Source: Acrocarpospora phusangensis (GTDB taxonomy: Bacteria > Actinomycetota > Actinomycetes > Streptosporangiales > Streptosporangiaceae). Taken from it: DNA of 64,000 bases. A program made the translations under genes and the position numbers. The DNA lies in NCBI RefSeq assembly GCF_016862995.1, contig NZ_BOOA01000013.1, positions 62,001 to 126,000 on the forward strand. Direction: 5' to 3'. The stretch's first letter is position 1; each line of letters opens with the position of its first letter. Positions 11,340 through 24,975 of the stretch are shown here, in pieces. The notes below the pieces were generated by a model that was not told the origin of the DNA, made no database searches, and saw only the letters and a program-made list of their open reading frames with translations.

Positions 11340-14300
11340 TCAGTTGATGTTGAGGGTGAACGTCGAGGTCGTGTTCTTGATGTTCTGGAAGTTGTTGCTC
11401 ATCACCAGGTTGTTGAAGGTGGCCGAGCCGACCGCCGGGCCCTGACCGGACTCGGGCATCTCGTTGACCCAGATGCCGAACCCGGACTTGGCGTCGAAGG
11501 CGTCGCCGCTCTTCTGCGCCCCGGAGATCCTGATGTTGGTGAAGATGGTGTCGGTGTGCGGGAACTCCGCCGCGCCGTTGTACTTCGTCTGGAACATGAT
11601 CCCGCTGTAGGTCGGGTCCACGATGTCGACATCGCTGATCCGGATGCCGCGGAACTCCTTGGAGGCCGAGAACATCCAGATGCCGGGGAAGGTCTGCGCG
11701 CCCCAGAAGTGGCCGCCGGACCGGATGATCGAGACGTTCTCGATCCGCGTCGGCGTGGTGCCGAAGCCCCGGAACGGGTAGCCGAAGTCGAGCGAGCTGA
11801 CCGTGATGCCGGAGTAGGTCAGCGTGTCGGCGATGTAGATGTTCCTGAAGGTGTTGTCGAAGCCGCCGTAGATGGCCAGGCCGGCCGCACGCCACGGGGT
11901 GGTCACCGAGAGGTTCTCGAAGAGGTTGCCCGTGTTGTCGCCCTGCACGATGTCGACCGCGTTGAACAGGGCGAAGGCGTCGTCACCCGTGGAGCGGGCG
12001 TCGATGTTCCTGACCGTGTTGTTACGGCTGTTGTTCGTGAAGTTGAGGCCGTCGGCGTACATGTTGCGGATGCGGCTGTTGGACAGGGTGATGTTGCTGA
12101 TGTTCGTGCCCCAGACCATGACCATCTGGTGCTCGATCCACATGTTGTCGATCGTGATGTTGCTGACGCCGGTCAGGTTCCAGACCTTGCCGGGGCCGTC
12201 CTCGCGGAAGGTGTAGTTGCCGAACGCCGCGAAGCCGGAGAAGGCGGAGCCGTTGGCGGAGGACTGCACGTCGAAGCCGATGTTGCTGTTCTCCTGGGCG
12301 GTCGGCGAGTAGAACCGGGTGTACCAGGGTCCCGCGCCGACGACCTTGACGGCCTTGCCGTACACGTTGAGCTTGCCGGAGATCTGGTAGTCGCCGGCGG
12401 GCAGGTAGACGCCCTCCCAGCCGGTCTCCATGCGCGCCTTGTCGAGGGCGGCCTGGACGGCCTGCTGGGTGAAGCCGGTCGGCACGGTGTACTTGGCCGG
12501 GTCGGGGTTGGCGTTGGGCGCGACCTGCTCGGTGTTGATGAAGTCGATCGCGTACGTGGTGTCGTTGCCGGGGTCCTTCTGCAGGCGGATCTTCGTGCCG
12601 GGCGGGTACGACTGGTTCAGGAAGATGTTGGCCTCGTCGTAGATGTGGCGCGGGCCGCCGGAGCCGGGCGAGTTGTTGGGGCTCGCCTCGTTGCCGTACT
12701 GCCAGATGTACTTGGAGGTCAGGTTGATCGCCTTGTGGAAGGTGCCGTTGACGTAGACGTTGAGTTCCTCGCTGATGCCGCCGCCGCCCGCGGAGTCGGG
12801 GATGGAGAAGCGGGTGACCAGGGTGTTGGTGGCCGCGCGGGTGGTGAACTCGACGAAGGCGCCGTTGGTGTTGAGGGTGACGGCGCGGCGTCCGCTGGCC
12901 TCGCCGCCGAGGTCGCCGATGGTGCGGTTCGGGCCGACGAGGCCGGCGCCGCCACCGCGTACGGCGTCCTCCGCCTCCAGGTGGTCGTACGGCATGTTCG
13001 CGCCGCGGCCCACGAAGAGGCTGCTGTCGGTGGTGTTGTTGGCCTGCTTGACCGGCAGTTCGTTGCCGTCGTTGGCGAGCACGACCCGGACGGTGTAGCG
13101 GCCGTTGGCGGCCGTCCAGGTGCCGAGGGCGACCGGGGCGGTGGTGGCGCCGGCGTTGATGACGCCGGTGTGCGAGCCGGTCAGGGTGCGCACCACGGTG
13201 CCCTGGTCGTTGAGGACGGTCAGGGTGATGCCGTGGGCGCCGCCGGCCGAGGCCACCGTGCCCTGGTTCCTGATGCCGACGCTGAAGTTGACGGTCTGGC
13301 CGCCCGACGGGTTGCTCGGGGTCCAGGCCACCGGCGAGGCCACCAGGTCGGAGCTGTCGACCGGGCGTACGGTCAGTGCCGCCGGGTTGACGTAGGCGTT
13401 GTTGCCGTCGTTCTGCTCGATGATCGTGTTGGACTCGTCCACCTTGGCGTTCACCGAGTAGCTCGCGGCGTCGCGCGGGCCGATGTTCGACGTGACGGTC
13501 GTCTGCGCGCCCGCGGCCAGCGCCGGCACGTTCACCGTGGCCACCCGGGTGGTGTCCAGGTAGAGGTTGACGGTGGTGGCCGGGGCGTTCGCGGTGCCGT
13601 TGTTGCGGACCACGGCCGACAGCGTGATGGCGTCGGTCTCGACCGGTGAGGCGGGCGACCAGGTGGCCGAGGTGACGACCAGGTCGGGGTTGGGGGCCGG
13701 GGTGCCGAACACCTGGAACTCGGCGACCTGGCCGCCGGGCGCGCCGGTGTTGCTGTTGACGCGCAGCTGCACGTCCGCGGTGGTCGCGGTGACCGGGATG
13801 GTGACGGTGTTCTGCGAGGCGGGGTTGAACGTGTAGTTGGCCGCGGCAACCAGGCTGGTATAGCCGGTCGCGCTCTGCTCCCGCCCCAGGACCTGGATGT
13901 TCTGGGTACGGGTGCCCCACGCGCTGGACGGGTTGAGCTTCACGACCACCGAGGTGACGTTGGCGTTGGCGCCCAGCTTGACGGTGAGCGTGCCCGGCCA
14001 GGCGCCGGACGCGCCCTCCCAGTAGGTGTCCAGGCTGCCGTCGTTGGCGTTGGCCGCGACGAAGGTGTGCACGTGGCCGGACTCGACCATCTCCTTGCCG
14101 GTGGCCAGGTTGCTGCCCGGCGGCGTGGAGCCCTGCCGGGTCACCGAGTTGGACTCGCCGGAGACGTTGCCGGCGGCGTCCTTGGCCCGGACGTGGTAGG
14201 TCACGGTCGCGGTGGCGGGCTGGTTGTCGGTGTAGGTGAGCACGTTGCCGGCGACCGTGGCCGCGACGGAGCCGTTGCGGTAGACGTCGTAACCGGTGAC

Positions 14301-15629
14301 GGCGACGTTGTCGGTGGAGGCGCTCCACGTCAGCCGGATCTGGCCGGAAGCGGGCTCGGTGTAGGCGAGGTTGCCGGGCGCGGTGGGCGCCTGGGTGTCG
14401 CCCTGCTGCTGGCCCTGGCGGGTGACCGAGTTGCTGTTGGCCGACTGGTTCCCGGCGGCGTCCTTGGCGCGCACGAAGTAGGTGACCGTGGCGCTGACCG
14501 GCTGGGTGTCGGCGAAGGAGGTGACGTTGCCGACGCTCGCGCGGAGGGTGTTGTTGGCGTAGATGTCGTAGCCCGTCACGCCGACGTTGTCCGTCGAGGC
14601 GTTCCAGGTGAGCTGGATCTGGCCGGGGGTGGGCTCGGTGAAGGCCAGGTTGCCGGGCGCGGTGGGCGCCTGGGTGTCGCCGGTGCTCGGGCCGTACACC
14701 TCGAACTCGGAGATCTGGCCGGCGGGCCAGCCGGTGTTGGCGGTGATGTTCAGCCGCACGTACCGGGTGGTGGTGGTGCCGAAGTTGATGGTGACCGTGT
14801 TGCCGTTGGCCGGGTTGAACACGTATCCGGCGGAGGCGACGATGTCGCTGAAGGTGGAGCCGTTCGTGCTGCCCTGGACGGCCAGCGTCTGGGTGCGGGT
14901 GGGCCAGCCGGAGGCCGGCAGCTTGAGCACGACGCGGTTGACCGCGACGGACGCGCCCAGGTCGACCTGGAGCCACTCGGGGAAGACGTTGTTGTTGCTC
15001 TCCCAGTAGGTGGCCTGGTTGAGGTCGTTGGCGTTGCTCGCCACGTACGTCTGGGAGACGCTGCTGCCCGTCATGGTCTTGCCCTGGGCGAGGTTGGCGG
15101 AGCCGCCGGTGCTGGTGCCGTACACCTCGAGCTCGGAGAGCTGCCCGGCGGGCCAGCCGTTGTTGGCCGTGATGTTGACGCGCACGTACCGGGTGCTGGT
15201 GGCCGCGAAGTTGATGGTCACGGTGTTGTTCGTGGCCGGATTGAAGGTGTAACCGGCCGAGCCGACGATGGTGGCGAAGCCGGTGCCGTCGTTGCTGCCC
15301 TGGACGGACAGGGTCACGGTCCTGGTCTGCCAGGCGGGGTCGGCGGGGAGCTTCAGCACGACCTGGTCGATGCTGGTGGCGGCGCCCAGGTCCACCCTGG
15401 CCCACTGCGGGAAGCTGTTGTTGGCGCTCTCCCAGTACGTGGCCTGGTTGCCGTCGTTGATGAGGTTCGCGGTGTGCCCGCCGGTGGTGGTGCTGGCCGA
15501 GGCGGTCTTGCCGAGGCTGAGGTTGGGCCCGCCCGTGGCGGCGGCCGGGACGACCGACCCCATGAGGACGAGCGCGCCGGCCGCGAGGGCGGCGGCGGCC
15601 ATGCGTAACGGTCCGTGCGTCTTTCTCAT
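11340..15629 (-). CDS. secreted GH87 alpha-1,3-glucanase (mycodextranase type) with discoidin, FN3 and CARDB modules
   Basis: 1429 residues. After a Sec signal peptide (1-32) come two discoidin/F5-8C modules (about 35-310), two fibronectin III domains (about 320-500, near-identical), a third discoidin module (about 505-645), two CARDB-type domains (about 650-860), a carbohydrate-binding-like sandwich (about 875-1045) and a right-handed beta-helix (about 1050-1429). The helix has Asp1193 (YADG) and the pair Asp1216-Asp1217 (GDDA). That spacing of 23 and 24 matches the three Asp residues I recall for GH87 alpha-1,3-glucanase. It should degrade alpha-1,3-glucan of fungal cell walls or dental-type glucans, with the front modules binding substrate. 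Secreted and monocistronic. Confidence 0.88.
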   Translation of the reverse strand: MRKTHGPLRMAAAALAAGALVLMGSVVPAAATGGPNLSLGKTASASTTTGGHTANLINDGNQATYWESANNSFPQWARVDLGAATSIDQVVLKLPADPAWQTRTVTLSVQGSNDGTGFATIVGSAGYTFNPATNNTVTINFAATSTRYVRVNITANNGWPAGQLSELEVYGTSTGGSANLAQGKTMTGSSVSQTYVASNANDLNQATYWESNNNVFPEWLQVDLGASVAVNRVVLKLPASGWPTRTQTLAVQGSTNGSTFSDIVASAGYVFNPANGNTVTINFGTTTTRYVRLNITANTGWPAGQISEFEVYGPSTGDTQAPTAPGNLAFTEPTPGQIQLTWNASTDNVGVTGYDIYANNTLRASVGNVTSFADTQPVSATVTYFVRAKDAAGNQSANSNSVTRQGQQQGDTQAPTAPGNLAYTEPASGQIRLTWSASTDNVAVTGYDVYRNGSVAATVAGNVLTYTDNQPATATVTYHVRAKDAAGNVSGESNSVTRQGSTPPGSNLATGKEMVESGHVHTFVAANANDGSLDTYWEGASGAWPGTLTVKLGANANVTSVVVKLNPSSAWGTRTQNIQVLGREQSATGYTSLVAAANYTFNPASQNTVTIPVTATTADVQLRVNSNTGAPGGQVAEFQVFGTPAPNPDLVVTSATWSPASPVETDAITLSAVVRNNGTANAPATTVNLYLDTTRVATVNVPALAAGAQTTVTSNIGPRDAASYSVNAKVDESNTIIEQNDGNNAYVNPAALTVRPVDSSDLVASPVAWTPSNPSGGQTVNFSVGIRNQGTVASAGGAHGITLTVLNDQGTVVRTLTGSHTGVINAGATTAPVALGTWTAANGRYTVRVVLANDGNELPVKQANNTTDSSLFVGRGANMPYDHLEAEDAVRGGGAGLVGPNRTIGDLGGEASGRRAVTLNTNGAFVEFTTRAATNTLVTRFSIPDSAGGGGISEELNVYVNGTFHKAINLTSKYIWQYGNEASPNNSPGSGGPRHIYDEANIFLNQSYPPGTKIRLQKDPGNDTTYAIDFINTEQVAPNANPDPAKYTVPTGFTQQAVQAALDKARMETGWEGVYLPAGDYQISGKLNVYGKAVKVVGAGPWYTRFYSPTAQENSNIGFDVQSSANGSAFSGFAAFGNYTFREDGPGKVWNLTGVSNITIDNMWIEHQMVMVWGTNISNITLSNSRIRNMYADGLNFTNNSRNNTVRNIDARSTGDDAFALFNAVDIVQGDNTGNLFENLSVTTPWRAAGLAIYGGFDNTFRNIYIADTLTYSGITVSSLDFGYPFRGFGTTPTRIENVSIIRSGGHFWGAQTFPGIWMFSASKEFRGIRISDVDIVDPTYSGIMFQTKYNGAAEFPHTDTIFTNIRISGAQKSGDAFDAKSGFGIWVNEMPESGQGPAVGSATFNNLVMSNNFQNIKNTTSTFTLNIN

Positions 15630-16026: not shown

Positions 16027-18738
16027 ATGAGTGGGCACCCGGGCGGATACTGGGCCGAGAACGATCTGCTGGTCGATCACGTACGGGCCGCGGTCGCCCG
16101 TACCGGCGAGGACTGGCACGTCAACCCGGGTAAGGCGTGGTGCTACGTGGCGCCGCACGGCCACCGGGACCGGCCGCAGGGCTGGAAGCTGCACGTGTCG
16201 GCGACGCCGCTGTCGGCGCCCATCGTGGTCGCCCGCGCCGCCTCGGTGCTGATCGCCCGCCGGGCCTCCTTCAAGTTCGCCACCACCATCGACCGGGTGG
16301 AGGAGCTGGTGGGCGCCCAGCACGACCGGGGCGGCTCCGGCAAGGTGATCACTGTCTATCCGGAGAACGACGAACGTTTCACCGTCCTGGCCGAGGAGCT
16401 GGACCGGATCACGCGGGGGCTGGCGGGGCCGCGCATCCTGTCGGACAAGCCGTACCGGCCGGGCAGCCTGGTGCACTACCGGTTCGGCGTCATCGCCGGG
16501 ACGCGCATGCTGGACAACGACGGCACCGACGCGTCCCTGTTCACCCGGCCGGACGGCACCTTCGCGCTGGACCGGCGCATGCCCTGGTTCGCCACGCCCG
16601 AGTGGGCGCCGCCGTGCCCGATCCCCGACGAGCCCAGGCCGGCCGCCACCGAGGGGCCGGCCAAGCCGGTGCTGCTCGGCGGCCGGTTCGCGGTGCACGA
16701 GGCGATCGTGCAGGCCAACAAGGGCGGCGTGTACGTCGGCGCCGACCGGGAGACCGGCGCCGAGGTCGTGATCAAGCAGGCCCGGCGGCACACCGACGGC
16801 TCCCGGTTCGGCCGCGACGCCCAGGACCGGCTCCGCCACGAGGCCGACATGCTGGACGAGCTGGCCCCGCTCGGCTTCACCCCCCGCAAGATCGCCCTCT
16901 TCGAGCAGCAGGGCGACCTGTTCCTGGCCGAGGACAAGATCGACGGGCAGCGGCTGCGCGACTGGGCGCACGACCGCGTCCGCAGGTCCGACGACGACCT
17001 CGGCGCGCCGCTGCCGGACGTGCTGGCGCTCACCCGGCGGCTGATCGCCCTGGTCGCCGCCGTGCACGAGCGCGGCGTGGTGCTGCGCGACCTGACCCCG
17101 AGCAACGTCATGGTCGCCCCCGACGGCACGCTCCGCCTGATCGACCTGGAGCTCGCGGCCCGCCCCGGCGACGTCGTCGAGGCCGCCGCCACCCCCGGGT
17201 ACGGCACGCCCGAGGCGTTCTCCGGCCCGCGCGTCACCGAGGCCCCCGGCTTCGACGCCGACTGCTTCGCCCTCGGGGCCACGGTCTTCCACCTGGCCAC
17301 CGGCCTGGACCCGGTCTCCCCCAGCACCGGCGGCGCGGACACGGCCTCCCCCGAGCGCATGCGGGAGTTCGTGGAACGCGCGGCGGTGCGGCATCTGGCC
17401 CTGCGCCGGGTCGGCCCGCTCATCCTGGGCCTGCTCGGCGTGGACGGCGAACGCTGGACGCCGGCGCGGGCCGCCGAGTACCTGGACGGCGAACTGCCCG
17501 CCCTGGCCGTACGGGCCGGGACGGACGAGATCACCGAGGACGAGCACGAGCGCCTGCTGACCGGCGGCCTCGGCTTCATCCTCGCCACGATGGATCTGGA
17601 GAGCCGCGACTTCCTCTGGCCGGCTTTCGGCTTCGCCGCCGAGTCCGACCCGTGCAACGTGCAGACCGGCGCGGCCGGCGTGCTCGCGGTGCTCACCCGG
17701 GCGGCCGGGCTCCGGCCCGAGGAGCGGCTGCGCCAGGCCGTCGCGGACGTGTCCGGCTGGATCGAGCGGAAGATCGCCGCCGAGCCGCGGGTGCTGCCCG
17801 GCCTCTACTTCGGCCGCTCCGGCACCGCGTGGGCGCTGCACGACGCCGCCCGGCTGCTCGGCGACGGGCGCATGGCGCACCGGGCGGAGAGCCTCGCCCT
17901 GAACGCGCCGGTCGACTGGCCCAACCCGGACATCTGCCACGGCATGGCGGGCGCTGGCCTCACCCAGCTTCACTTCCTGCGCGCCACCGGCGACGAGCGT
18001 TTCGCCGTACGGCTCCGCCGGGCCGCCGACAACCTGCTCGCGGCCGTGGAGCCCACGCCGGAGGGCGTGATGTGGGAGGTGCCCAAGGACTTCGCCTCGC
18101 AGCTCGCCGGAATCCGGCACTACGGATTCGCGCACGGAGTCGCCGGGATCGGCGCGTTCCTGCTGGCCGCCTTCCAGGAGACCGGCGACGAACGCTACCT
18201 GGACATGGCCCAGCAGGCCGGGCGCACCCTCGTCAAGGTGGCCGACCAGGACGGCGGGCAGGCCTGGTGGCCCTCCGACGAGCGGGAGATCCGCACCCGC
18301 AAGGCCGACGGCGCGCCGTCGGAGGCGGTCTACTGGTGCAACGGCTCCTCCGGGGTCGGCACGTTCCTCATCCGGCTCTGGCGGCAGACCGGCGACCCGG
18401 AGGCGCGCGAACTGGCCGAGCAGGCGGCGGTCGCGTCCTGGCGAACGCCCTGGTACACCTCCCCCGCGGCCTGCCACGGCACGGCAGGGAACGCCGAGTT
18501 CCTGCTGGACATGGCCGACGCGCTGGGCGAGGACCGGTACCGGCGGATGGCCGCCGAGATGAGCGGCGCCGTCTTCGCCAGGCACGCCACGCGCGACGGC
18601 CACCTGGTGGTGGGCGACGACTCCTTCCACGAGGTCACCGCCTCCTATCACACCGGCCTGGGCGGGGTCGTGGCGCTGCTGCTGCGGCTGCGCCACGGCG
18701 GCCCGCGCCCGTTCATGGCGGAAGGGCACGACCGGTGA
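16027..18738 (+). CDS. class IV lanthipeptide synthetase (LanL: lyase-kinase-cyclase)
   Basis: 903 residues. Residues 1-210 are the lyase region with GWKLHVSATPLSAP, shared by class III and IV enzymes. Residues about 214-490 are a Ser/Thr-kinase-like domain with VVIKQA, catalytic loop LRDLTPSN (Asp355) and IDLE (Asp373) in place of DFG. Residues about 520-900 are a LanC-type alpha-toroid. It keeps zinc ligands Cys771 (YWCNG), Cys816 and His817 (ACHGT), plus a further CHG at 637-639. The intact zinc site argues for class IV (LanL) rather than class III (LanKC). The enzyme phosphorylates and eliminates Ser/Thr in the precursor, then adds Cys thiols to form (methyl)lanthionine. First gene of the cluster, start preceded by AAGGGG. 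Confidence 0.9.
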   Translation: MSGHPGGYWAENDLLVDHVRAAVARTGEDWHVNPGKAWCYVAPHGHRDRPQGWKLHVSATPLSAPIVVARAASVLIARRASFKFATTIDRVEELVGAQHDRGGSGKVITVYPENDERFTVLAEELDRITRGLAGPRILSDKPYRPGSLVHYRFGVIAGTRMLDNDGTDASLFTRPDGTFALDRRMPWFATPEWAPPCPIPDEPRPAATEGPAKPVLLGGRFAVHEAIVQANKGGVYVGADRETGAEVVIKQARRHTDGSRFGRDAQDRLRHEADMLDELAPLGFTPRKIALFEQQGDLFLAEDKIDGQRLRDWAHDRVRRSDDDLGAPLPDVLALTRRLIALVAAVHERGVVLRDLTPSNVMVAPDGTLRLIDLELAARPGDVVEAAATPGYGTPEAFSGPRVTEAPGFDADCFALGATVFHLATGLDPVSPSTGGADTASPERMREFVERAAVRHLALRRVGPLILGLLGVDGERWTPARAAEYLDGELPALAVRAGTDEITEDEHERLLTGGLGFILATMDLESRDFLWPAFGFAAESDPCNVQTGAAGVLAVLTRAAGLRPEERLRQAVADVSGWIERKIAAEPRVLPGLYFGRSGTAWALHDAARLLGDGRMAHRAESLALNAPVDWPNPDICHGMAGAGLTQLHFLRATGDERFAVRLRRAADNLLAAVEPTPEGVMWEVPKDFASQLAGIRHYGFAHGVAGIGAFLLAAFQETGDERYLDMAQQAGRTLVKVADQDGGQAWWPSDEREIRTRKADGAPSEAVYWCNGSSGVGTFLIRLWRQTGDPEARELAEQAAVASWRTPWYTSPAACHGTAGNAEFLLDMADALGEDRYRRMAAEMSGAVFARHATRDGHLVVGDDSFHEVTASYHTGLGGVVALLLRLRHGGPRPFMAEGHDR

Positions 18739-20330
18739 GAGTCAGCTTCCGCTTCTCCGCGTGCGGGCGTTACGCGGCCTGCCTGTCGGCCGGCGAAGAC
18801 GGCGGCCTCCAGCCCGAGGTGTGGGACTTCACCCGGAACGGCGTACGGCTGCTGCCGGGAACCGCCGACGCGGGCACCCAGGTTCTGCCGCTGGACGGCG
18901 ACCGGATTCTGCTCTGCCGTAATGAAAACGGCCGGTACGAGATCACCGAGCTCACCGAGGCGGGCGAACGCGTGGTCGCGGCCGGGACGGGCCTGGTCGT
19001 GCACCTGAACGCCGGGAGCCACACCTCGGGGGTGCTCGCGGTGGGCGCCGCGCCGGACGGCTCCGGCGGCCGGATCTTCCGGGTCGGGACCGGCCTGGAG
19101 CCGCTGGCCGCGCTGCCGCCGGGCGTGCAGGGCGCGGGTGTGCCGCTGGGTCCCGGGCTGCTGGGGTTCACGCGGCTGGGGCCGTACACGGCGGGGCCGG
19201 TCATGGTGGATCTGGTGCGGGACGCCTGGACGCAGGTCCCCGGCGCGGGACCGGGCGCGCAGCTGCTCGCGGGCTCGCCGCGGTCGGGCCTGATGCTGCT
19301 GGCCGAGCCGCGGCCGGACGGGTACGAGGTGCGGTGGAACCACGCCGACGGCCGGGCCGAGCCCCGGCGCGTGACCGGGATCGACGGGGTGCTGACCCCG
19401 CTGGCCGCGCACGGGGACGGGCGGCGGTTCGCGCTGCGCCTGGACCGGGGCAGCCGCTCGCGCCTGGCCGTGCTCACCCCGGAGACGGGCGAGCTGACCG
19501 AACCGGCCGTCCCGGACGGCGTGCTGCACGCCTCGGCCGGCTGGCAGGGCGACACCCTGCGGGTGCCGTTCACCTCCCCGGGCGCGCCCGGTTCCGTGCT
19601 CAGCGTCACGCCGGACGGGTTCCGGCTGGATCCGCCGGCGCGGGCCGTACGGGCCAGGGTCGAGGTGGTGGCGGGCACGGAGGCCGTCACGTACGGCGAC
19701 TGGCGCGCCGCGGACCGGGTGGTGATCGCCCTGCACGGCGGCCCGCAGGACGCCTGGCGGTACGCCTACGACCGCGTGTTCGCCGCGATCGCGGAGACCG
19801 GGGTGGCGGTGGTCGCGCCCAACCAGCGCGGCAGCTCCGGCTACGGCGCCGCCCACCGGGACGCCCTGGTCGGCGCGTGGGGCGGCCCCGACCTCGACGA
19901 CGTGCTCGCCGTCGCCGCGGCCGTCGGCGGCCGGCCCCGCCTGTACGGCGTGAGCTACGGCGCCTACCTGGCCCTGCTCGCCTACGCCCGCCGGCCGGAA
20001 AGCTGGTCCCGCTGCGCGGTGGTCGCGCCCTTCCTGTCCCCCGCCGGCCTGTACGCGCACGCCGACCCCTCGGTGCGCCGCCTGATCGACCGGCTGGACG
20101 GCCACTCCGGGCCCGACGTGGCCCCGCTGGCCGAACGGCTGAGACCCCCGCTGATGGTGATCCACGGAGCCGACGACCCGGTCATCCCGGTCGCGCACGC
20201 GCGCCGGCTCCGCACGCTGATCCCGGCGGCCATCGACTACCTGGAGATCCCCGGCGCCGGCCACTCCCCGCTCAGCGAGGCGGGCGGCGCGGAGCTGACC
20301 GGCAGGCTCGCCGAGTTCCTGGCGGCCTGA
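18735..20330 (+). CDS. S9 (prolyl oligopeptidase-type) serine peptidase, likely leader protease
   Basis: 531 residues from a GTG that overlaps the synthetase stop by four bases (GTGA), so the two are translationally coupled. The N-terminal 300 residues form a beta-propeller-like region; the C-terminal alpha/beta-hydrolase domain has HGGPQDAWR, NQRGSSGYG, nucleophile Ser407 in GVSYGAY, acid Asp480/481 in HGADDPV and His510 in GAGHSP. Prolyl-oligopeptidase relatives remove the leader in some class III lanthipeptide pathways (FlaP is the example I know). Both precursors have Pro12 and Pro21 where such an enzyme could act. No signal peptide, so it acts in the cytosol before export. Confidence 0.88.
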   Translation: MRVSFRFSACGRYAACLSAGEDGGLQPEVWDFTRNGVRLLPGTADAGTQVLPLDGDRILLCRNENGRYEITELTEAGERVVAAGTGLVVHLNAGSHTSGVLAVGAAPDGSGGRIFRVGTGLEPLAALPPGVQGAGVPLGPGLLGFTRLGPYTAGPVMVDLVRDAWTQVPGAGPGAQLLAGSPRSGLMLLAEPRPDGYEVRWNHADGRAEPRRVTGIDGVLTPLAAHGDGRRFALRLDRGSRSRLAVLTPETGELTEPAVPDGVLHASAGWQGDTLRVPFTSPGAPGSVLSVTPDGFRLDPPARAVRARVEVVAGTEAVTYGDWRAADRVVIALHGGPQDAWRYAYDRVFAAIAETGVAVVAPNQRGSSGYGAAHRDALVGAWGGPDLDDVLAVAAAVGGRPRLYGVSYGAYLALLAYARRPESWSRCAVVAPFLSPAGLYAHADPSVRRLIDRLDGHSGPDVAPLAERLRPPLMVIHGADDPVIPVAHARRLRTLIPAAIDYLEIPGAGHSPLSEAGGAELTGRLAEFLAA

Positions 20331-20341
20331 CCCCACGACGG

Positions 20342-20367
20342 GCGGGCGCGCGATCCGGCGCGCCCGC
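20342..20367 (+). terminator. 10-bp hairpin before the precursor genes
   Basis: GCGGGCGCGC, six-base loop, GCGCGCCCGC: a perfect stem between the peptidase stop and the first precursor's ribosome site. It may attenuate or process the transcript so that precursor and enzyme levels differ. Confidence 0.55.
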
Positions 20368-20401
20368 GACCCGGCGGACACGGAAGGAGGTGAACAAGAG
20401 C

Positions 20402-20554
20402 ATGGAGATCAGCATCGACGCCCTTCAGCTGCTCCCCGAGCAGTTCGAGACCGGCCTGCGTCCCTGTGAGGTGACCTGCGGCGGCGGCAACACCTGCACC
20501 CGCACCTGCGGCGCCGGCTGCCCGACCACCAACACCGGTGGCGGCTGCGGCTGA
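20402..20554 (+). CDS. class IV lanthipeptide precursor 1 (ALQxL type)
   Basis: 50 residues, preceded by AAGGAGGTGA eleven bases before the ATG; an in-frame GTG at 20390 is an alternative that would add four residues. The leader carries DALQLLPEQ, the helix recognised by class III/IV enzymes, and I recall an ALQxL class IV family by this motif. The core after Gly18 has six Cys (22, 26, 32, 36, 40, 49) and seven Thr (25, 31, 33, 35, 42, 43, 45) but no Ser. Only methyllanthionine bridges are therefore possible. T-C dipeptides occur three times. Its leader differs from precursor 2 at three of the first 23 positions. Confidence 0.88.
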   Translation: MEISIDALQLLPEQFETGLRPCEVTCGGGNTCTRTCGAGCPTTNTGGGCG

Positions 20555-20603
20555 CCGGGGTTACGGCGGTCCCATATTTCGACGCAGTCAGGGGGTGAAA
20601 GAA

Positions 20604-20738
20604 ATGGAACTCAGCATCGACGCCCTGCAGCTGCTCCCGGAGCAGCTGGAGATCGGGTTGCGCCCGTGCGAGCCCACCTGCAACGGGGGCAAGACGTGCA
20701 CCAACGGTTACACCTGTCCGAACGGGCGTACCGGCTGA
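20604..20738 (+). CDS. class IV lanthipeptide precursor 2 (ALQxL type)
   Basis: 44 residues starting MELSIDALQLLPEQ, 49 bp after precursor 1 with GGGGGTGAAAG upstream of the ATG. The core has four Cys (22, 26, 32, 38) and five Thr (25, 31, 33, 37, 43), again no Ser; T-C pairs occur three times, at 25-26, 31-32 and 37-38. The first half of the core aligns with precursor 1 (R-P-C-E-x-T-C), then the sequences diverge. This looks like gene duplication followed by core drift, giving two products or a two-peptide product. Confidence 0.88.
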   Translation: MELSIDALQLLPEQLEIGLRPCEPTCNGGKTCTNGYTCPNGRTG

Positions 20739-20764
20739 AAGTAGGCGCCTGAGGGCGTGGTGAG

Positions 20765-20799
20765 AGGGCACAGGCCGGAATACGGCCGGCCTGTGCCCT
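20765..20799 (+). terminator. 12-bp hairpin after the precursor genes
   Basis: AGGGCACAGGCC, an 11-base loop, and GGCCTGTGCCCT form a perfect stem 26 bp past the second precursor stop and 22 bp before the transporter start. No T-run follows. It fits partial termination or 3'-end stabilisation that keeps precursor mRNA more abundant than transporter mRNA. Confidence 0.65.
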
Positions 20800-20821
20800 C
20801 CGACTCGAAGGATAGGTTCTC

Positions 20822-22471
20822 GTGAAGGCTCTGGTCCTGCGCACCGCGCGGGACGCGCCCGGCTGGACCGCCCTGTACGTCCCGGCGACGCTGGCGCTGG
20901 CCGTGTCATCCCTGCTCATGCCGTTCGTCCTGGCCCGTGCCGTGGCCGCGGTGATCGGCGGCGGGGACGCGTTCCGGCCGGTCGCGCTGCTGTGCGGGCT
21001 GGTGCTGGCCGAGGCCGCGATCACCGTGCTGTCGGCGTACGCCGTCACCACCGGATGCGCGCACATGACCGCGCGGCTGCGCCGCCGGCTGGCCGCGCAC
21101 GTGCTCGCGCTCGGCGTGCCCGGCGGGCGGGTGTTCTCCGTCGGCGACCTGACCGTACGGCTGTCCGGCAACGCGGAGGAGGTGGCCGACGTGGTGCCCG
21201 ACGGGCTCGCGGTGGTCGTGTCCGGCGCGACGGCGCTGGGCGGGCTGGCCGGCCTCTGGCTCATCGACTGGCGGCTGGCCGCCGTGCTCCTGATCGGCCT
21301 GCCGGTGGCGGCTTTCCTGACCAGGTCGAGTGTGTTCCAGTTCTCCGATGCCTTCGGCCGGTACCAGCAGGCGCAGGGGCGGCTGGCCGCCCGGTTGCTG
21401 GACGCGCTGCGCGGAGCGCGCACGATCCGGGCGTCCGGGTCGCTGGAGCGGGAGATCGCGCGGGTGTCGGCGGTGCTGCCCGAACTGAGCGCGGCCGGGC
21501 GTGACGTGTGGTCCGCGCAGCGGCGCACCTCGTGGCGGCTGTCGCTGCTGACGCCGGTCCTGGAGGTGGCGGTGCTGGCCACGGCCGGGTTCGCGGTCGC
21601 GGCGGGCGACCTGGAGCCCGCGCAGCTCACGGCCGCGGCCGGTTATCTGCTGATCGCCGTCAACCTGCTGTGGCAGCTGGACAGCCTCAGCGGCCTGCTC
21701 TCGCTGCGCGAGTCGGCGGCCCGGGTGTCCGCCGTACTGGCCGAGCCCGCGCCCCGGCCCGGTGACCGGGAGCTGGCGGGCGGGCCCGGGACGCTGACGC
21801 TGCGGGAGGCGGCGGTGGCGTCGGCCGGGCTGTCCGGGGTGGCGCTCACCGTGCCCGCCGGGGCGTCCGTCGCGGTCGTCGGCCGGTCGGGGGCGGGCAA
21901 GTCGACGCTGGCCATGCTGGCGGGCAGGCTGGCCGACCCGGACTCCGGCGTGGTCGCCCTCGACGGCCAGGACCTGCGGCTGGCGCACGCGCGCCCGCAC
22001 ATCGGGTACGCGTTCGAGCGCCCTGTCCTGCTCGGCGAGACGATCGAGGACGCCATCGCCTACGGGATGCCCGAGGCGACCAGGGCCCAGATCGAGCGCG
22101 CGGCCGGGGCGGCGCAGGCCGACCGGTTCATCCGGCTGCTGCCGCGGGGCTACGACACGCCGCTCGAAGCCGCGCCGATGTCGGGGGGCGAACGGCAGCG
22201 GATCGGGCTGGCCAGGGCGCTGCTGCGGGAGGCGCGGCTGACCATCCTCGACGACGCCACCTCCAGCCTGGACACGGTCACCGAGAGCCAGGTAAGGGAG
22301 GCGATCACGGCGACCTTGGCGGGCCGTACGCGGCTGGTGGTGGCGCACCGGGCGGCCACGGCCGCGCGGGCCGACCTCGTGGCCTGGCTGGACGGGGGCC
22401 GGGTGCGCGCGTTCGCGCCACACGCGGAGCTGTGGGCGCAGCCCGAGTACCGGGAGGTGTTCGGCGCGTGA
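20822..22471 (+). CDS. ABC exporter half-transporter 1 of lanthipeptide cluster
   Basis: 549 residues, GTG start. About 300 residues of transmembrane exporter domain, then an ATPase domain with Walker A GRSGAGKSTL, signature MSGGERQRIG and Walker B LTILDDATSS. The catalytic Glu is replaced by Asp (DD), as in the degenerate half of heterodimeric exporters, while its signature is canonical. The second half follows with a four-base overlap. Together they should export the modified lanthipeptide. There is no N-terminal C39 protease, consistent with the separate S9 peptidase. Confidence 0.9.
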   Translation: MKALVLRTARDAPGWTALYVPATLALAVSSLLMPFVLARAVAAVIGGGDAFRPVALLCGLVLAEAAITVLSAYAVTTGCAHMTARLRRRLAAHVLALGVPGGRVFSVGDLTVRLSGNAEEVADVVPDGLAVVVSGATALGGLAGLWLIDWRLAAVLLIGLPVAAFLTRSSVFQFSDAFGRYQQAQGRLAARLLDALRGARTIRASGSLEREIARVSAVLPELSAAGRDVWSAQRRTSWRLSLLTPVLEVAVLATAGFAVAAGDLEPAQLTAAAGYLLIAVNLLWQLDSLSGLLSLRESAARVSAVLAEPAPRPGDRELAGGPGTLTLREAAVASAGLSGVALTVPAGASVAVVGRSGAGKSTLAMLAGRLADPDSGVVALDGQDLRLAHARPHIGYAFERPVLLGETIEDAIAYGMPEATRAQIERAAGAAQADRFIRLLPRGYDTPLEAAPMSGGERQRIGLARALLREARLTILDDATSSLDTVTESQVREAITATLAGRTRLVVAHRAATAARADLVAWLDGGRVRAFAPHAELWAQPEYREVFGA

Positions 22472-24186
22472 GAACCCCCGGTTTCCGGCTGCTCCTCGCG
22501 GAACTGCGCGAGTCCCGTGGGGCGCTGCGCCGCGTCGCGCTCTGGTCCGCCGTCGAGGCACTGCCTCCCCTCGGGTACGGCCTGCTGCTGGCCGCCGCCC
22601 TCGACCGCGGCTTCCTGGCCGGACGCCCTCTGGAGGGGCTGTTGTGGCTGCTGGCGATGGGTGTGCTCATGCTGGCCGGGGCGGGCGCGCAGTACGCCAT
22701 GTTCCCCGCGCTGGCCGCCGTGGTGGAGCCGCTGCGGGACCGGCTGGTGCTGCGGGTCGTGCGGAGCGCGCTCTCGCGGGCCGTACTCGGGGCGGAGCGG
22801 CCGGACACGGCGGCGGTGGCCCGGCTGACCCAGCACGTGGAGATGGTCAGGAATCTGGTGTCCGCGCTGATCCGGCAGCTGCGGACGACGCTCGTCACGC
22901 TGCTGGCCGGGGTGGCCGGCCTCGCCGCGCTGGCCCCGCAGGTGCTGCTCGTCGTCGGCGCGCCGCTGCTGATCGCGGCGTTCGTCTTCGCGCGGTCGCT
23001 GCGCGGCCTGGCGCGGGTCAACCGGCGCAGCGTGCTCGCCCGCGAGGGCGTGTCCACCGCGACCACCGAGATGCTGGAGGGCGTGCGCGACATCGTGGCG
23101 TGCGGCGCGGAACAGCGTGCTCTGGCCGACCTGGACCGGGCGCTGGAGGAGCAGGTGCGCTCCAGCCGGGCGGTCGCGCACGCGGAGACGACCAGGACCG
23201 GTGTCCTGCTGCTGGGCGCACAGCTGCCGTTGGTGGCGCTGCTGCTGAGCGCGCCCTGGCTGCTGTCCGGCGGCACGGTCACCCCCGGCGAACTGCTGGC
23301 GGCGGTGGCGTACGTGTCGGTGACCCTGCAACCCGCCGTGCGCTCCCTGATCGCCGTCGTCGGCGGCTGGGGCCTCCAGCTCGGCACGCTCCTCACCCGC
23401 ATCGCCGAACAGTCCTGGACGCCCCTCCGCCGCCCGCCCGGTGGCCGCCCGCCGACCCCCGGCGACCTCACCGCCACCGGTCTCACCTTCGCGTACGGCC
23501 CCCACGCCGAACCCGTCGTCGCCGGCCTCGACCTGTTTCTGACCGATGGCTGCCACCTGGCCGTCGTGGGCCCCAGCGGCATCGGCAAGTCCACCCTGGC
23601 CGGCCTGCTCACCGGCCTCCTCTCCCCCCGCCACGGCGAGGTACGGCTGGGCGGCGTCCCCCTCCCCGACCTGGACGAGGCCGCCCTGCGCCGGACCGTC
23701 GCCTTGATCCCCCAGGAGGCGTACGTCTTCGCCGGGACCCTCCGCGACAACCTCGCCTACCTGAACCCGGACGCTGCCGACGGCCAGTTGGCCGAGTCCT
23801 GCGCGGCGCTCGGCGCGGCCGACCTCGTCACCCGGCTCGGCGGGCTGGACGCCGAGGTCCCGGACACTCTCTCGCAGGGGGAACGGCAGCTGATCGCCCT
23901 CGTCCGGGTGCACGTCTCGGCCGCCCGGGTCGTCGTGCTGGACGAGGCCACCTGTCATCTCGACGCCGCCGCCGAAGCCACGGTGGAGCGGGCCTTCGCC
24001 GCGCGCGGCGGCATCCTCGTCGTCATCGCGCACCGCATCAGCTCCGCCATGCGGGCCCGCCAGGTCCTCGTCATGGACGGCGCCCGCGCCGAACTCGGCA
24101 CCCACGAGTCGCTGCGCCACGCCAACCCGCTCTACGCCGGCCTGTCCGGCCACTGGGCGGCCGATCCCGCGCCCGCGGGCACCTGA
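22468..24186 (+). CDS. ABC exporter half-transporter 2 of lanthipeptide cluster
   Basis: 572 residues from a GTG overlapping the previous stop (GTGA). Membrane domain then ATPase with Walker A GPSGIGKSTL, signature LSQGERQLIAL and Walker B VVVLDEATCHLD. It keeps the catalytic Glu but its signature has Gln for the first Gly (SQGE). Paired with half 1 this yields one consensus and one degenerate ATP site, the known arrangement of heterodimeric exporters. Last gene of the lanthipeptide unit. Confidence 0.9.
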   Translation: MRTPGFRLLLAELRESRGALRRVALWSAVEALPPLGYGLLLAAALDRGFLAGRPLEGLLWLLAMGVLMLAGAGAQYAMFPALAAVVEPLRDRLVLRVVRSALSRAVLGAERPDTAAVARLTQHVEMVRNLVSALIRQLRTTLVTLLAGVAGLAALAPQVLLVVGAPLLIAAFVFARSLRGLARVNRRSVLAREGVSTATTEMLEGVRDIVACGAEQRALADLDRALEEQVRSSRAVAHAETTRTGVLLLGAQLPLVALLLSAPWLLSGGTVTPGELLAAVAYVSVTLQPAVRSLIAVVGGWGLQLGTLLTRIAEQSWTPLRRPPGGRPPTPGDLTATGLTFAYGPHAEPVVAGLDLFLTDGCHLAVVGPSGIGKSTLAGLLTGLLSPRHGEVRLGGVPLPDLDEAALRRTVALIPQEAYVFAGTLRDNLAYLNPDAADGQLAESCAALGAADLVTRLGGLDAEVPDTLSQGERQLIALVRVHVSAARVVVLDEATCHLDAAAEATVERAFAARGGILVVIAHRISSAMRARQVLVMDGARAELGTHESLRHANPLYAGLSGHWAADPAPAGT

Positions 24187-24204: not shown

Positions 24205-24975
24205 ATGAAGGTCCAAGCGGCCGACAGAGCCGAGGCGCCGGGCGCGCTCGGCCTGGTCCAGATGTTCGTCAACAGCGTCAACATCGAGTTCGGGCCTGAC
24301 GAGTTCGCCACCGCGGACGGCCTCGCGGCCTGGCTGGCCCGCCACAGCCTCGGGACCATCGCGGTGGGCGAACTCGACCGCCACGACGCCGTCGCCCTGC
24401 GCGAGGCCGTACGCGCCCTCCTCCGCGAGAACAACGGCGCCGGGCCCGACCTGGAGGCCCGCCGCACGATGGCGCACATCGCCAGGAACTGCCCGCTAGT
24501 CGTCAGCTTCGGCACAGGCCACGCCATCGGACCGAGCGGCTCGGACCCCGAACCCACCCACGAGGACTCCGGATCGTCCGCCGCGGACGCCGGCCCGACC
24601 GGCGTCGCCAGAGGTTTGGCTGGCGTGACCGGCGGACCGATCGGCGTGACCGGCGGAGAGGTCCGCTCAGCCGGTGGACCGGCCGTTCTGGCCGGTGGGC
24701 CCTCCGGGGCGTCCGACGACCGCCAAGGTGTCGGGCGGCTCGGGTTCCGGCCCGTGCTGTCCGATATCCGCGGCGCGCTCGCGGTCATCCTGGCGTCCGT
24801 GGCGGGGGCGGTGGCCGACGGGTCCTGGCAGCGTCTCAAGGCCTGCCATGAGCCTCGCTGCGAGTGGATCTTCTACGACCGATCCCGCAATCGGGGCAGC
24901 CGGTGGTGCTCGATGGCGGTCTGCGGCACGCGCGCGAAGATGCGCGTCTACCGCGAGGCGAAACGCACCCGCTGA
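24205..24975 (+). CDS. ABATE-domain / CGNR zinc-finger protein
   Basis: 256 residues. The N-terminus (LVQMFVNSVNIEFGPDEFATADGL) has the ABATE pattern, a putative stress-related sensor domain. The C-terminus is a CGNR-type zinc finger with CHEPRCEW and WCSMAVCGTRAKMRVYR, here reading CGTR. Between them, residues about 110-180 are a Gly/Pro/Thr-rich linker with GVTGG-like repeats that is longer than usual. Such proteins are thought to bind DNA. It starts 18 bp after the exporter and could be a regulator of the lanthipeptide cluster, but these genes are also common elsewhere. Confidence 0.8.
   Translation: MKVQAADRAEAPGALGLVQMFVNSVNIEFGPDEFATADGLAAWLARHSLGTIAVGELDRHDAVALREAVRALLRENNGAGPDLEARRTMAHIARNCPLVVSFGTGHAIGPSGSDPEPTHEDSGSSAADAGPTGVARGLAGVTGGPIGVTGGEVRSAGGPAVLAGGPSGASDDRQGVGRLGFRPVLSDIRGALAVILASVAGAVADGSWQRLKACHEPRCEWIFYDRSRNRGSRWCSMAVCGTRAKMRVYREAKRTR

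Follow-up and report, generated by a model that had tools for sequence, protein, structure and literature searches.

A locus of Acrocarpospora phusangensis almost certainly encodes a class IV lanthipeptide pathway, judging by its synthetase and gene set, and it belongs to a group of loci in which the precursor cores are built from tandem Cys–Thr units. On balance we favour rings that would close inside these units, with each Cys joined to the Thr that follows. The fuller account, in which a class IV synthetase forms rings mostly within C-x(2-5)-T units, an S9 peptidase trims the product and ABC transporters export it, seems probable to us. The window, i.e. the whole stretch of DNA that was analysed, comprises 64,000 nucleotides (G000:C13:62001-126000) of a genome of 9.1 Mb.

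Gene content of the locus

Six genes on the plus strand, at positions 16027-24186 of the window, code for the synthetase LanL, an S9-type peptidase, the precursors LanA1 and LanA2 and two ABC half-transporters (Table 1). LanL and the peptidase gene overlap by 4 bases, and so do the two transporter genes, the second of which starts with a GTG at 22468 that overlaps the stop of the first. The remaining intergenic gaps measure 71, 49 and 83 bases. A purine-rich stretch is present upstream of both precursor starts, and a promoter and terminator scan returned 0 promoter-like and 2 terminator-like sites, against 1.0 expected.

Table 1. Features of the lanthipeptide locus, in window positions
Feature	Position	Strand	Evidence
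LanL, class IV lanthionine synthetase (lyase, kinase, zinc cyclase), 903 aa	16027..18738	+	NF038150, PF25816, PF00069, PF05147
S9-type serine peptidase, probable leader peptidase	18735..20330	+	PF00326 60.9 bits
LanA1 precursor, 50 aa	20402..20554	+	NF038157 ALQxL 18.5 bits, cut-off 19
LanA1 core from first Cys: CEVT CGGGNT CTRT CGAG CPTTNTGGG CG	20465..20551	+	predicted core start
LanA2 precursor, 44 aa	20604..20738	+	NF038157 ALQxL 18.4 bits, cut-off 19
LanA2 core from first Cys: CEPT CNGGKT CTNGYT CPNGRTG	20667..20735	+	predicted core start
ABC half-transporter 1 (membrane + ATPase)	20822..22471	+	PF00664, PF00005
ABC half-transporter 2 (membrane + ATPase)	22468..24186	+	PF00664, PF00005

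LanL passes the class IV model NF038150 with 1037.4 bits (cut-off 650) and stays below the cut-off of the class III model NF038151 (467.8 bits, cut-off 575). The preliminary description had placed a class IV synthetase, a protease, two precursors and an exporter in one unit, which is borne out by this match, by the Pfam domains of the proteins and by the overlaps and short gaps between the genes. C771 and C816 of LanL are found in 77 of the 77 aligned LanL rows and H817 in 74 of 77, with all three present in the LanL of the window; we take them to be the zinc ligands of the cyclase domain. Kinase and lyase positions are conserved among the aligned relatives as well. The peptidase passes PF00326 (cut-off 22.6), and its triad S407-D481-H510 is retained in the aligned relatives, S407 and D481 in 53 of 53 rows and H510 in 43 of 53, the other 10 rows being gaps. 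By sequence, the nearest solved chains are the acylamino-acid-releasing enzymes 2qzp/1ve6.

Divergent from the lanthipeptide unit, a large alpha-1,3-glucanase-like protein with three F5/F8-type C domain matches and fibronectin and CARDB domains is encoded on the minus strand at 11340-15629. A CGNR zinc-finger/ABATE-type regulator (24205-24975, plus strand) lies 18 bases past the second transporter gene and could regulate the cluster. Judged by position and kind alone, both genes are taken as lying outside the unit.

Precursor peptides

LanA1 consists of the leader MEISIDALQLLPEQFETGLRP and the core CEVTCGGGNTCTRTCGAGCPTTNTGGGCG, LanA2 of the leader MELSIDALQLLPEQLEIGLRP and the core CEPTCNGGKTCTNGYTCPNGRTG. 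The two 21-residue leaders are identical at 18 of 21 positions, so that they had rightly been called near-identical. Counted from the first Cys, the LanA1 core holds 6 Cys, 7 Thr and 0 Ser and the LanA2 core 4 Cys, 5 Thr and 0 Ser, the same composition as described before. Since both cores are free of Ser, any ring formed in them would be a methyllanthionine, and the earlier claim that all rings are of this kind holds in that sense. Such Ser-free cores are less common among relatives, with 9 of 44 nonredundant cores in the group with LanL identity of at least 45%.

Both precursors narrowly miss the cut-off of the ALQxL model NF038157 (Table 1), while leader type and gene context match this family of class IV lanthipeptides. 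The VenA family model NF038147 (cut-off 35 bits) gave no match to LanA1 or LanA2 at E up to 1. Among six relatives with unit cores, L051 (30.4 bits), L057 (26.3 bits) and L042 (23.9 bits) pass NF038157 at its cut-off of 19, whereas L038 (18.3 bits), L041 (18.2 bits) and L040 (17.2 bits) fail; one precursor of a relative of the CC type passes with 20.0 bits. Because the model finds matches among the relatives, the leader family is already known to NCBI. NF038157 spans 17 leader positions and is silent on the core.

Related loci

Relatives of LanL at E up to 1e-150 are present in 61 of the 297 genomes drawn from its own family, its own genome counted. In the order draw, with E up to 1e-190, 38 of 345 genomes had one, many of which had already come up in the family draw. 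At E up to 1e-150 the own genome stands alone among the 396 genomes of the phylum draw, and the class IV model matched 19 of the 394 genomes of the class draw at E up to 1e-220. None of the relatives retrieved is close, the highest LanL identity being 53%, in the own-family draw, and a LanL scan of genome contigs returned one relative in the kinase region (25%). Genus searches around G202 and G201 gave no further locus, and one around G233 none beyond the loci of the order draw.

We fetched 76 loci, which make 77 with the window, and split them by LanL identity into 39 at 45% or above and 38 below. The order LanL, S9, gap, first ABC transporter gene is found in 24 of the 39 closer loci, window counted, and in 19 of the 38 more distant ones. 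An S9 match adjoins LanL in 33 of the 39 closer loci, leaving 6 without, and in 20 of the 38 below. In 23 of the 24 closer loci with the above gene order, the gap contains a precursor whose leader motif is of the class III/IV type. Given this recurrence and the 1037 bits of LanL, the lanthipeptide unit is not a chance assembly. The gene set looks complete and is that of an ordinary class IV cluster, in a layout common to many relatives. In L048, L050 and L053, from three genomes, the precursors stand behind LanL and ahead of S9, rather than past S9, and have the form MALDTLPAE...GLYP CFAT CLIIT CxYQGSTI.

The number of precursors detected among the 39 closer loci varies from 0 to 4: one in 21 loci, two in 2 (window included), three in 9, four in 2 and none in 5. 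The earlier suggestion of a two-peptide product is thus unsupported, and from paralogue sets of such varying size one would sooner expect several related products than a constant pair acting together. According to a published survey, 83% of class IV precursors are the sole predicted precursor of their cluster (PMC7268733); clusters with more than one are a minority there, a point in favour of the preliminary description.

Tandem Cys–Thr units in the cores

Precursors were collected with a filter that asks for a leader motif, two Cys and a purine-rich site and may miss some; LanA2 was missed by it and entered by hand. The closer group yielded 60 precursors from 34 of its 39 loci, which were collapsed to 44 cores at 0.7 similarity. 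The filter gave no precursor in the other five (L046, L054, L070, L072 and L074), nor in L127-L130, where the best-segment LanL identity is below 40%. L046 has a precursor candidate on the strand opposite its LanL.

The 44 nonredundant cores read as tandem C-x(2-5)-T/S units. Examples are CIAT CTVT CQTT CTITG, CNST CEINIRT CFNS CNGSGYTY, CLIT CEVGT CDDS CWITI and CGWLIT CGIT CGDAT CDVT CDITKKI. A non-first Cys directly follows Thr or Ser in 112 of 133 cases, a share that none of 2000 shuffles reached (shuffle mean 0.31). In 36 of the 44 cores, no Cys lacks a Thr or Ser between itself and the next Cys or the core end (shuffle mean 7.0, maximum 15). The distance from Cys to Thr peaks at 3, with 61 of 112 internal cases. 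Thr or Ser is retained behind the last Cys in 43 of 44 cores, LanA1 being the sole exception, and it stands at +3 of the last Cys in 31 of 44 (tail shuffle mean 13.8, maximum 25, 0 of 5000 shuffles as high). The number of Cys is 3, 4 or 5 in 42 of the 44 cores. With one core per locus and cores less than 60% alike, adjacency is still 50 of 64 (0 of 5000 shuffles), and +3 after the last Cys is seen in 16 of 22 cores against 7.2 (0 of 5000).

LanA2 can be split into such units without remainder, as C22EPT25, C26NGGKT31, C32TNGYT37 and C38PNGRT43, followed by G. LanA1 has the spacing of LanA2 in its first two units and continues with C32TRT35, with C36GAG, which is without Thr, and with C40PTTNT, so it fits the pattern in part only.

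The pattern is not seen in the group below 45% LanL identity. There, Thr/Ser-Cys adjacency is 12 of 30 (123 of 2000 shuffles as high), 3 of 13 cores have a Thr or Ser for every Cys, and +3 after the last Cys is seen in 3 of 13, no higher than in shuffles. These cores are mostly of venezuelin-like (GGTCxCxGLLTLLNTVCIGISCA) and NCIKHFGCTDN-like types. The first cores had already been viewed when the 45% border and the unit hypothesis were chosen, so a hold-out of 17 fresh loci is a fairer, though small, test. Six of these have LanL at 45% or above and give seven cores, with an adjacency of 11 of 17 (15 of 5000 shuffles as high) and +3 after the last Cys in 6 of 7 (18 of 5000). Two of the six loci, L117 and L124, are misfits of the CC type, in which no Cys directly follows Thr or Ser, and L116 fits by half.

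Cys-Cys at or near the core start, a departure from the unit pattern, is found in L047, L064, L067, L076, L117 and L124; L064, L067, L117 and L124 are also without an S9 match adjoining LanL.

Among the sampled genomes, nearly all loci with unit cores come from one actinomycete family. L125, from a genome of another family of the class (G982), has two perfect three-unit cores, CGIT CTWT CSWTSIAE and CAST CTWT CSWTSIIE, so the core style reaches beyond the own family. On the LanL tree, unit-type loci group together without forming one clade: the label 'modular' needs 10 changes, where shuffled labels need 20.6 on average and 0 of 500 as few. The labels are automatic and crude, and the window row itself is not labelled modular, as LanA2 was absent. 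A long branch (0.71) leads to this row; the five rows closest to it all belong to the unit type, and it falls in no starred set.

Predicted ring topology

For the pathway as a whole, we infer the modification, the ring pairs, the cleavage site and the export as follows. LanL would bind the shared leader of the ALQLLPEQ type, phosphorylate the core threonines and eliminate the phosphate to give dehydrobutyrine, to which its zinc cyclase would add Cys thiols, forming methyllanthionine rings. The predicted rings of LanA2 are C22-T25, C26-T31, C32-T37 (or T33) and C38-T43, i.e. four rings, with one Thr (T33 or T37) left over; those of LanA1 would be at least C22-T25, C26-T31 and C32-T35 (or T33). 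In LanA1, C36 has no Thr in its unit, and C49, with none behind it, would have to pair with a preceding Thr, as Cys50 does in venezuelin, or remain unbridged. The lack of free thiols expected in the preliminary description would be possible for both peptides. The calculated MH+ of the LanA2 core starting at C22 is 2333.937 unmodified, 2261.894 after loss of four waters and 2243.884 after loss of five; for the LanA1 core it is 2637.988 unmodified, 2529.924 after loss of six and 2511.914 after loss of seven. The S9 peptidase would then cut off the leader, plausibly beside the first Cys, and the two ABC half-transporters would export the products.

The direction of these rings is suggested by the end of the cores. 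Thr or Ser is kept behind the last Cys, mostly at +3, although no Cys follows, and rings from Cys to the following Thr are therefore favoured; of the pairings considered, this one alone predicts the residue at +3. We also considered an argument from a first Cys that has no Thr or Ser partner upstream. It holds for LanA2, bar S4 near the leader start, and was dropped as a general argument, because Thr and Ser are absent between the leader motif and the first Cys in only 9 of 44 cores.

There is a reported precedent for this direction in class IV. In venezuelin, the rings Cys34-Dhb39, Cys45-Dha49 and Cys32-Dhb43 have the Cys before the dehydro residue, Cys50-Dhb31 being the one ring of opposite direction, and its authors ask for NMR confirmation of the rings (Goto et al. 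2010, PMC2843593). By these assignments, ring closure between a Cys and a Thr or Ser further along the chain has been reported for a class IV enzyme, and Cys34-x4-Dhb39 and Cys45-x3-Dha49 are themselves units of the C-x(2-5)-T/S kind. As described, venezuelin (VenA/VenL) shares with the window the LanL type, two ABC-transporter genes and the lack of any other modifying enzyme, and with LanA2 the four Cys; the direction favoured here is that of three of its four rings (PMC2843593). It differs in its overlapping rings and in its cluster, for which no protease gene is described, whereas the window has the S9 peptidase. The preliminary description held that known products have fewer bridges, which fails against LanA2, because venezuelin is reported with four bridges (PMC2843593) and LanA2 can have at most four.

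The same genome carries another class IV cluster, L038 (G000:C23:16700-35300, LanL at G000:C23:24717-27311), which is a cleaner model of the unit idea than the precursors of the window. L038 has the gene order of the window and three precursors with cores that are nearly pure C-x-x-T repeats, e.g. the first of the examples given above. Its LanL is 46% identical to that of the window, and its leaders are different (e.g. ALQMLDGDE), without Pro before the first Cys.

Rings running mainly forwards, from a Thr to a later, non-adjacent Cys (T25-C32 and T31-C38 in LanA2), are unlikely in this class IV pathway. Lanthipeptide rings commonly run forwards, the direction from Cys to a later Thr being in the minority elsewhere. 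Venezuelin has one forward ring, Cys50-Dhb31 (PMC2843593), and the last Cys of LanA1 can close in no other way. Forward rings would leave C22 and C26 of LanA2 open or in a disulfide and its last Thr as dehydrobutyrine. They leave the kept Thr/Ser behind the last Cys unexplained, and three-unit cores such as CDYT CWFT CFWT ED of L041 would get one non-vicinal ring only.

We give little credit to very small rings between vicinal Thr and Cys, which would leave the first Cys and the last Thr either joined to each other or open. The repeated T-C dipeptides had been pointed out before together with possible T-C or T-x-C rings; the adjacency is real and the strongest single feature of the cores, but rings of this size are not favoured, given the Thr/Ser at +3 after the last Cys. 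Vicinal rings explain neither the Cys-to-Thr peak at 3 nor the retained last unit, and in venezuelin, by the published account, Cys32-Dhb31 was weighed and Cys32-Dhb43 supported instead (PMC2843593). Similarly improbable is an overlapping, globular product like venezuelin or cinnamycin, with the first Cys joined to a far Thr and smaller rings nested inside, for which the overlapping venezuelin rings, one of 20 residues (PMC2843593), are a reported example: since the number of Cys varies among the cores while the spacing within units stays peaked, independent rings suit better than nested ones. The unit pattern could also stem from repeat copying and need not equal the ring pairs.

Predicted leader removal

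Both leaders have Pro at positions 12 and 21, and P21 stands directly before the first Cys, so that a cut after P21 is an attractive candidate. Pro directly precedes the first Cys in 22 of the 44 nonredundant cores. Among the 60 precursors, 27 have both the leader LP and Pro before the first Cys (PC), 17 LP only, 1 PC only and 15 neither; because of these 15, a Pro-directed cut is unsure. Clusters without Pro before the first Cys also carry S9 genes. A leader-cutting peptidase of the S9 family is described in the lanthipeptide cluster of flavipeptin (class III), where FlaP cuts after Pro(-12) (PMC10885120). The S9 peptidase of the window differs in being nearest to acylamino-acid-releasing enzymes, and the likeness to FlaP is one of published description (PMC10885120).

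Significance for class IV lanthipeptides

The cluster is a class IV lanthipeptide member of a known gene-set kind; what is added here is the unit pattern and the prediction of ring direction. Few class IV products have been characterised so far, according to published overviews (PMC9576775, PMC10676316), and those named in the accounts consulted are venezuelin, streptocollin, SflA, globisporin and two further products. In the literature searched we found no description of the Cys–Thr-unit core style or of modular rings for class IV, and published precursor tables may already list such sequences.

Tentatively, and at slightly less than even chance, we propose a class IV group with strings of small, abutting methyllanthionine rings from Cys to the later Thr, one per unit, in which the number and content of the units are varied between paralogous precursors under one synthetase. 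Should every unit form a separate ring, a single enzyme would be accepting small rings as plug-in modules. Such precursors would then offer simple substrates for studying the choice of ring direction and partner by LanL cyclases, as well as a compact scaffold for peptide engineering.
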